Assembly: GCA_937934115.1 (NCBI GenBank)
Contig: CALHAH010000014.1
Coordinates: 1-64,000 of the forward strand
DNA from: an uncultured Thermoanaerobaculum sp.
GTDB lineage: Bacteria > Acidobacteriota > Thermoanaerobaculia > Thermoanaerobaculales > Thermoanaerobaculaceae
Direction of reading: 5' to 3'
Length of the DNA: 64,000 bases
The translations under genes were made by a program, and so were the position numbers. This document shows, piece by piece, positions 51,581-58,796 of this stretch (position 1 is its first letter; each line of letters starts with the position of its first letter). The notes beneath the pieces were generated by a model. The model was not told the DNA's origin and did no database searches. It saw only the letters and a list, made by a program, of their open reading frames with translations.

Positions 51581-52705
51581 ATGCAGGTGCTGGTGGTAGG
51601 ACCATCGTGGCCATTTCGCGGGGGCATCGCCCGTACCACCACGAGCTTAGCGGAGGCGCTGGCGAAACAAGATGCCTTGGCTGGCTTTTGTGTTCCGTAC
51701 AGGCAGTACCCGCGGTGGCTTTACCCCGGGGAAGAGGACCGAGATGAGGCTGCTTGCCCGCGGCTGCCGCAAGCCAAGGCGTGCTTTTCTTTGTTCAACC
51801 CTTTTTCTTGGCGTTTCCTGCGGCGGGCTTTTGAGGAGCTGACGGCCGAGGCGGTAGTGGTGCCTCACTGGACCGCGGCCTGGGCACCCTTGGAACTCTT
51901 CTTGGTCCGGCAGGCGGTGCCGGTTTTTGCGGTGGTGCACAACCCCTTTGACCACTCAGGTACGTCTTTGAGTCGGTGGGTTAGTCGGAAGGCGCTGTGC
52001 GGTGTTCGGGGGTTTTTAACCCACGCCAAGAGTGTGGCGTGGCAGCTTTCCCGGTGGTTTCCACAAAAGCCCCTGCGTGTGCACCCCTTACCTCCACCAC
52101 CTGTGACTCCCGTGGCTAAGCACCACGCGCGGGAACAGCTGGGGATTGCCCAGGATGCGGTGGTTTTTCTGTTTTTTGGCCTGGTTCGACCGTACAAGGG
52201 GTTGGATGTGCTTTTGGACGCGGCGCGCCTTCTCCCCTCGGACCGTAAATGGCTTTTGGTGGTGGCAGGTGAGGTTTGGGGTGAGACCGCTGAGCTGGCA
52301 GCGCGCGTGGGCGATCCTTTCTGGCGTTCGCGCCTTATGTGGCACCCCCAGTGGGTGCCGGAAGAGGAAAGTCGAATTTGGTTTTCGGCGGCAGACGTCA
52401 TGGTTTTGCCTTACAGGAAAGCTACTGGTTCGGCTGTGGCTGCCCAAGCGTTGGCCTACGGCTTGCCGTTGGTGGCCACCCGTACGGGTGGGTTAGAAGA
52501 GGTAGTGGAAGAGGGTGTGAACGGACTGTTGGCGGAACCTGCGGATGTGGTGAGTCTGGCACAGGCTTTGGAACAGCTTTTGGACCCAGGGAAGCGGGAA
52601 CAGCTGGCGGTGGGTGCGAGGCGTGTGGGCAGTCGCTGGAGCTGGAGTTCTTACGCTTCGTGTTTGCTTGACCTGGTGCGGGAGGGACTTAGTGTTTCCA
52701 GTTAA
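51581..52705 (+). CDS. Family 4 glycosyltransferase
   Basis: 374 residues from the ATG at 51581 (an ATG 18 bases earlier is possible). N-terminal 'VLVVGPSWPFRGGIARTT' has the acceptor-site Gly pair. The C-terminal half has 'FFGLVRPYKGLDVLLDAARLL' and the GT4 signature 'VLPYRKATGSAVAAQALAYGLPLVATRTGGLEEVVEEG' with the conserved donor-binding Glu region. It transfers sugar from an NDP-sugar, probably in surface polysaccharide synthesis. It overlaps the convergent repressor gene by four bases. Confidence 0.94.
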   Translation: MQVLVVGPSWPFRGGIARTTTSLAEALAKQDALAGFCVPYRQYPRWLYPGEEDRDEAACPRLPQAKACFSLFNPFSWRFLRRAFEELTAEAVVVPHWTAAWAPLELFLVRQAVPVFAVVHNPFDHSGTSLSRWVSRKALCGVRGFLTHAKSVAWQLSRWFPQKPLRVHPLPPPPVTPVAKHHAREQLGIAQDAVVFLFFGLVRPYKGLDVLLDAARLLPSDRKWLLVVAGEVWGETAELAARVGDPFWRSRLMWHPQWVPEEESRIWFSAADVMVLPYRKATGSAVAAQALAYGLPLVATRTGGLEEVVEEGVNGLLAEPADVVSLAQALEQLLDPGKREQLAVGARRVGSRWSWSSYASCLLDLVREGLSVSS

Positions 52706-53376
52706 AGGCTCGGTCTTGCAGGCACCCACCACACCACCCGCCCCAAAACCACCTCCGACAGAGGCTGGCCCGGGCGGAGACGAAGGGCGCGGGGCAAATG
52801 CGCGGGGTTATCGGAAAGCAGAATCAAGACCCGCGAGGAAGGGTCTAACACCAGGCGTTTGATGGTACAGCCCAAGCTGTCGCCTGCTTCTTCACGCACC
52901 GCGTAAATGTGTCTGGGGATGATGTGCTCCACGGGGGTGAGGTCAAGGAGCACCGTGGCGCCTGGGGGGATGGTGTCGGCCATGGAGTCCTGATCTTTTC
53001 CCAGCCGCACCAAAACCGCGTGGGAGGGCTCCACTCCCAGTGCGTGCAGAAGGCTGGTGGGGAGCGGTTCGTAGCCCTCCACATGGTCGCTGACGAACGC
53101 TGGTGGGCCGGCGGCAATGCGGTCGGCCACCAAGGGAACCGGTACGGTTTCTCCAGAGTGCGGGGTTGAGGGTTCTTCTCCCAAGAGATTGCCGGCGGTG
53201 GTGCCCAGGGCGGATGCCAGGCGACGAAGCACGGAAACCGTGGGGACTGACTCACCCCTCTCGATTTGCGCCAAGAAATTCCGCGAAACACCGGCGCGGC
53301 GGGCCAGAGCTTCTTGCGACAACCCTGCCAGCTTCCGCAAACGTCGGAGGCGCCAGGAGAGCTCTTCAGTGGTCAT
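52702..53376 (-). CDS. LexA-like XRE-S24 repressor with self-cleavage residues
   Basis: 224 residues from the ATG at 53376 (GGAGGT upstream). Residues about 7-63 are an XRE helix-turn-helix ('LAGLSQEALARRAGVSRNFLAQIERGE'), not the winged helix of true LexA. The C-terminal half is an S24 peptidase: cleavage site Ala89-Gly90 in 'RIAAGPPAF', nucleophile Ser131 in 'DQDSMADT' and base Lys173 in 'CTIKRL'. These are the residues needed for RecA-stimulated autocleavage, as in lambda CI. It diverges from the imuA-imuB-dnaE2 operon and sits next to its palindromic operator, so it very likely represses those genes and itself. Confidence 0.92.
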   Translation of the reverse strand: MTTEELSWRLRRLRKLAGLSQEALARRAGVSRNFLAQIERGESVPTVSVLRRLASALGTTAGNLLGEEPSTPHSGETVPVPLVADRIAAGPPAFVSDHVEGYEPLPTSLLHALGVEPSHAVLVRLGKDQDSMADTIPPGATVLLDLTPVEHIIPRHIYAVREEAGDSLGCTIKRLVLDPSSRVLILLSDNPAHLPRALRLRPGQPLSEVVLGRVVWWVPARPSL

Positions 53377-58600: not shown

Positions 58601-58796
58601 GGACGAAAGCGGTTTCGTGAACGTGGTCTTTACCCCCGATCTTTTTGTCCGGGAGCGGGTTACCATTACCACTTCGGCGCTTCTGGAGGTGGAGGGGATC
58701 GTACAGAGCCGGGACGGGGTGCTCACGGTACGGGCTTTGGCCGTAAATCCTTTGGCACTGCCCGCTCCAGTGTGCGAATCCAGGGATTTCCACTGA
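55662..58796 (+). CDS. dnaE2: Error-prone DNA polymerase DnaE2
   Basis: 1044 residues from the ATG at 55662, inside the end of imuB. N-terminal PHP domain ('[17 protein letters not shown]'). The polymerase palm carries PDIDLD with Asp386 and Asp388 and a later '[12 protein letters not shown]'; fingers ('[18 protein letters not shown]') and the C-terminal OB fold ('[28 protein letters not shown]') follow. There is no tau-binding tail, as usual for DnaE2. It is the polymerase of the ImuA-ImuB-DnaE2 mutasome that copies damaged DNA with low fidelity. Confidence 0.96.
   Translation: [1044 protein letters not shown]

Follow-up and report, generated by a model that had tools for sequence, protein, structure and literature searches.

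The window analysed here, a 64,000-nucleotide stretch of DNA, is part of a 2.4-Mb Thermoanaerobaculaceae (Acidobacteriota) genome that is 96.7% complete. The nearest named relatives of this genome are Thermoanaerobaculum, and further acidobacterial MAGs are also related. Within the window, a gene encoding a repressor with an XRE helix-turn-helix (HTH) and an S24 peptidase domain (XRE-S24) faces away from imuA, imuB, and dnaE2 (Table 1). The stop codon of imuA abuts the ATG of imuB, and imuB and dnaE2 overlap by 8 nt if the ATG of dnaE2 is at 55662. This layout agrees with the first-pass annotation, which described three overlapping or abutting mutasome genes and a divergent repressor gene. The dnaE2 start is most likely at 55662 rather than 55599 because the longer ORF matches the error-prone polymerase family only from residue 25 onward. 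A longer XRE-S24 ORF (to 53439) is unlikely because the promoter would fall inside it.

Table 1. Genes, promoters, and operator-like palindromes at the XRE-S24/imuA locus (window positions)
Feature	Position	Strand	Basis or remark
XRE HTH + S24 peptidase repressor, 224 aa	52702-53376	-	ATG at 53376
imuA, RecA-fold, 234 aa	53498-54202	+	Domain matches, position
imuB, Y-family polymerase homologue, 488 aa	54203-55669	+	IMS domain
dnaE2, error-prone C-family polymerase, about 1044 aa	55662-58796	+	Most likely start; ORF open from 55599
Repressor promoter, TTGACA-17-CATATT	53395..53423	-	10/12 consensus matches
imuA-imuB-dnaE2 promoter, TTGACA-17-TACATT	53433..53461	+	Promoter search
O1, operator-like palindrome, TTGACCACTGTGGAGGTCAT on minus strand	53377..53396		Between repressor -10 and start codon
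O2, weaker palindrome, TGTCAAC-N7-GTTGACA	53417..53438		Built from two back-to-back -35 boxes
O3, operator-like palindrome, TTGACATCTATAGAAGTCAG	53433..53452		From imuA -35 box into spacer
O4, operator-like site, GTGACCACGATGGTATTCCA	53466..53485		Just past imuA -10 box; right half degenerate

ImuB matches the IMS domain (PF00817, 64.7 bits), and DnaE2 matches NF004225 with 1282 bits (cut-off 939). ImuA matches the RecA-fold family PF00154 over its cut-off and is encoded directly upstream of imuB; its match to the NCBIfam ImuA model (E 9.9e-15, 54.9 bits) is below that model's cut-off of 150. The locus thus has the composition of an ImuA-ImuB-DnaE2 cassette, with an ImuB homologue and DnaE2 in one operon and ImuA upstream of imuB. 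RecA is present in the genome. Downstream of dnaE2 are a coiled-coil ORF (58828-59226, minus strand) and a transposase-like ORF (59371-60720, plus strand) encoding an rve integrase core. The real start of the latter is probably near 59371, because its listed 626-aa form overlaps the coiled-coil ORF on the opposite strand.

XRE-S24 contains an HTH_3 domain (PF01381, 61.7 bits) and a Peptidase_S24 domain with a modest Pfam score (39 bits, cut-off 23.3). The winged HTH of LexA (PF01726) has no match in this protein or elsewhere in the genome, which sets XRE-S24 apart from canonical LexA. The Ala-Gly bond and Ser-Lys dyad of self-cleaving S24 repressors are found at A89-G90, S131, and K173. None of these residues varies in the aligned orthologues, the most distant of which are about 62% identical, and in alignments with sister-family LexA they fall on its AAG, SM, and K residues. 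Both features of the protein proposed in the first-pass annotation, retained autocleavage residues and an XRE HTH in place of the LexA winged helix, were therefore borne out.

S24 residues are also conserved in some proteins that do not undergo RecA-dependent cleavage. XRE-S24 might control the cassette and be inactivated in another way, for example by an antirepressor protease or ligand, and the XRE repressors DdrO and ImmR are cleaved by M78 metallopeptidases (PMC8072749). However, the genome encodes no M78 peptidase (PF06114) that could serve as an IrrE-like partner, making a route like IrrE/DdrO unlikely, and the invariance of the A-G, Ser, and Lys residues also argues against another mode of inactivation. 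We consider such a mode quite improbable.

When XRE-S24 was modeled using AlphaFold, the prediction had a pLDDT of 82 and a pTM of 0.60, with a poorly defined loop at residues 88-94. The best PDB matches of the model include the lambda-186 hybrid repressor, LexA, and lambda CI. Whole-chain TM-scores were low, as expected if the two domains of XRE-S24 are placed differently. In BLAST searches, the S24 domain matched CI-type repressors of phages as well as other XRE-S24 proteins from acidobacteria. None of the sister-family LexA proteins was matched at E 10, and we therefore rejected the idea that the protein is a LexA with a swapped HTH. We also rejected a prophage origin of the locus: no phage structural genes were seen among the neighbors that we inspected, and identity to phage homologues is only about 30%. 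XRE-S24 had a single weak match to a viral contig.

Both promoters at the locus are near-consensus, and four promoter-like sites were found in the stretch searched versus 0.1 expected in shuffled sequences. Alignment of the 13 orthologous regions revealed a 20-bp palindrome with the consensus TTGACAACGATAGTTGTCAA at three places, O1, O3, and O4; the O1 element is also found in the other 12 regions. Written as half-sites, the inferred operator is TTGACAAC-N4-GTTGTCAA. We built a matrix from which the genus of the window was held out and scanned the 64 kb with it. The top three positions were O3 (20.8 bits), O4 (20.0 bits), and O1 (19.3 bits). Among random 64-kb windows of like composition, the mean best score was 13.9, and 1 of 100 reached 19.3 even once. 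Two caveats apply to the conservation of these sites: parts of O2 and O3 lie in -35 boxes, which would be conserved in any case, and O4 overlaps the imuA start codon in several relatives. In some of these (L005, L006, and L012), the apparent ATG of imuA is inside O4, roughly 14-20 nt past the -10 box. Because the ATG is so near the -10 box, the imuA mRNA of these relatives may be nearly leaderless.

The spacing between the two promoters varies within the family. About 185 bp part them in G026 and G033, where no tRNA was found in the insert, and each promoter retains its own sites. In G021, the promoters are parted by a 534-aa ORF, and again each retains its own palindromes. This ORF, a putative membrane protein, lies between the repressor and imuA at L045 (1024-2625 and 2701-3312). 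O2 was lost in all three genomes while O1, O3, and O4 persist, and we therefore rejected it as the main operator.

XRE-S24 orthologues were detected in 13 of 17 Thermoanaerobaculaceae genomes, most of which are incomplete MAGs; identities within the aligned set are about 62-88%. The first-pass annotation had suggested searching related genomes for XRE-S24 next to imuA. All 13 orthologues proved to be divergent from imuA, directly so in 12; in G021, imuA follows the 534-aa ORF and is at the contig end. Judged by gene order, this synteny is more than chance. In the four genomes with no repressor, ImuB is weakly matched (best matches in G027 and G029), unmatched (G034), or encoded by an imuB cut by the contig end (G024). 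On these results, G027, G029, and G034 lack ImuB as well. No genome among the 17 was thus seen to have the repressor but not the cassette, and the pattern named by the first-pass annotation as contrary to a dedicated role, a repressor conserved elsewhere without imuA, did not occur. We expanded the search for XRE-S24 beside imu genes to 396 genomes of the phylum and found full-length strong matches only in Thermoanaerobaculaceae. The next-best locus, L141, was rejected as another such pair, as it has no imu genes. It encodes a distant acidobacterial XRE-S24 protein (L141:1477-2556, genome G048) that has the GKDQDSM motif in common with the present one and is flanked by two small, divergently oriented ORFs containing CxxC pairs.

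To examine LexA in this lineage, we compared the family with its sister family. The LexA HTH had no convincing match in the 17 Thermoanaerobaculaceae genomes (weak matches in four, with E no better than 1e-4), an absence judged from many incomplete MAGs together, whereas 19 of 20 sister-family genomes had strong matches. XRE-S24 is the sole S24 protein found in the genome carrying the window and, with LexA undetectable across the family, its only detectable S24-type repressor. In many sister-family genomes, the motif TTAYGC-N9-RCCTA precedes lexA. Eight of 12 sister-family loci also have the motif, with 0 or 1 mismatch, in their imuA region, ahead of imuB. In many genomes of that family (L078-L096, L119-L132), a longer version, TTGAYTTAYGC-N9-RCCTA, lies ahead of lexA and of the imuA region; it is a candidate acidobacterial LexA box. 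At the present locus, the sister-family motif has at least four mismatches everywhere in 52900-53700, so the unrelated LexA box that the first-pass annotation had weighed as controlling the operon did not turn up. Since the motif precedes both lexA and imuA in the sister family, the simplest reading is a regulator swap, in which control of the cassette would have passed to a phage-type repressor and LexA would have been lost.

Alternatively, the palindromes could belong to another regulator, and XRE-S24 could be a co-regulated neighbor, such as a UmuD-like mutasome accessory. UmuD, too, is an S24 protein and the partner of a Y-family polymerase. Yet the XRE HTH of the protein is intact, a palindrome is located on the repressor's own promoter as expected for autoregulation, the divergent repressor-operator-operon layout is typical, and the locus has no LexA motif. 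We regard this explanation as very unlikely.

To determine how far the presumed regulon of XRE-S24 extends, we used a pattern search for the operator across the genome, while the matrix scan covered the 64-kb window. Genome-wide, four positions fit the pattern TTGACMWYNNTNNNRGTCA exactly. Two of them are O1 and O3, and the others fall within long ORFs, so that exact intergenic matches occur only at the repressor/imuA region. Eight more positions fit with one mismatch, all of them in ORFs except L173, which is clear of long ORFs; a reversed-pattern control gave three matches. The operator was not found at the recA promoters of Thermoanaerobaculaceae, where the highest score was 7.9 bits versus about 19-21 for O1, O3, and O4. 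With exact intergenic sites only at this region and none at recA, control by XRE-S24 looks local, although a pattern search could miss diverged sites, and the system looks like a shrunken SOS switch.

A broader role for XRE-S24, as a general LexA replacement with a wide SOS regulon in which the imu cassette is one target among several, would fit its status as the only S24 protein of a genome missing LexA, and the non-canonical LexA of Bacteroidetes offers a precedent (PMC8565304). The exact operator matches other than O1 and O3 are within long ORFs, however, the recA promoters have no such motif, and genomes without ImuB also have no repressor. A wide regulon is therefore unlikely. Collectively, the sequence data suggest that XRE-S24 very probably switches only imuA-imuB-dnaE2. 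It is likely a phage-type repressor that was captured and now acts as a LexA for one module.

LexA and CI repress as intact dimers, and RecA filaments stimulate their self-cleavage. By analogy with these proteins, we infer that XRE-S24 binds the palindromes, that the direction of control is repression, that cleavage is stimulated by RecA, and that the cassette is inducible. A dimer of XRE-S24 would bind the 20-bp palindromes at O1, O3, and O4 and block RNA polymerase at both its own promoter and that of imuA-imuB-dnaE2. Upon DNA damage, RecA-ssDNA filaments would form and RecA would stimulate self-cleavage at A89-G90 by S131 and K173. The cleaved repressor would lose its dimerization domain and leave the DNA. 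Repressor and mutasome would then be expressed together, and newly made repressor would re-close the switch. The cassette appears to have come under its control, in place of that of canonical LexA, in the ancestor of the family. The local switch served by a dedicated CI-like repressor that the first-pass annotation envisaged is well supported in silico by co-occurrence, palindromes at both promoters, and the lack of detectable LexA.

The closest known systems share parts of this arrangement. In Francisella, a lineage lacking LexA, the phage-type S24 repressor FddR is divergent from the error-prone polymerase gene dinB in some species, its regulon is small, and recA is not induced (PMC13148647, 2026). 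The present locus likewise has a phage-type S24 repressor divergent from its putative target in the absence of detectable LexA. The two differ in lineage, in target (dinB versus imuA-imuB-dnaE2), and in operator (GTG-N11-CAC for FddR), and FddR, which we compared by description, groups with lambdoid repressors (PMC13148647). The non-canonical LexA of Bacteroidetes also combines a PF01381-type HTH with an S24 domain bearing the cleavage residues, replaces LexA, and has imuA-imuB-dnaE2 among its targets in several species (PMC8565304). XRE-S24 has the same domain combination and residues. In contrast, the Bacteroidetes networks are broad and include recA, and their operators, GGA-N5-TCC or CTAA-N5-TTAG (PMC8565304), do not fit the consensus here, which we found on one module only.

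Mutagenesis cassettes bearing their own cleavable S24 repressor are known from Pseudomonas putida (lexA2-imuA-imuB-dnaE2) and Deinococcus (lexA-imuY-imuB-C-dnaE2) (PMC3901139, PMC8072749). There, LexA is encoded by the first gene of the operon, whereas XRE-S24 is encoded divergently in a genome with no detected LexA. HdiR of Streptococcaceae, as far as the description in PMC8565304 extends, is similar in being a phage-type S24 repressor over a minimal polymerase-centred SOS regulon, but belongs to another clade and governs another polymerase set. An S24 repressor running SOS genes (Bacteroidetes, Francisella) and self-controlled imu cassettes (Pseudomonas lexA2) are thus already known; the lineage, the operator, and the pairing of repressor and cassette are new here. 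We found no publication dealing with SOS control in Thermoanaerobaculum.

Since XRE-S24 very probably switches only the mutasome genes, damage-inducible mutagenesis without a general SOS response may exist in this family. It is an evenly balanced proposition that the mutasome alone was left damage-inducible, with a phage repressor replacing LexA at one promoter region and recA outside damage control. The sister family retains LexA and the motif common to lexA and imuA, and the two families therefore form a comparison pair for the replacement of a LexA circuit. The locus supports the view that silencing of error-prone polymerases is the most strongly retained part of the SOS response (PMC8565304, PMC13148647), and it adds Acidobacteriota, a phylum with no such switch reported in the literature we found. 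It also offers a testable case of DNA-damage-induced mutagenesis without inducible repair. If our reading is true, inducible mutagenesis in these bacteria would be uncoupled from inducible repair, and the module would represent a natural intermediate stage through which a phage repressor can give rise to a rebuilt SOS network.
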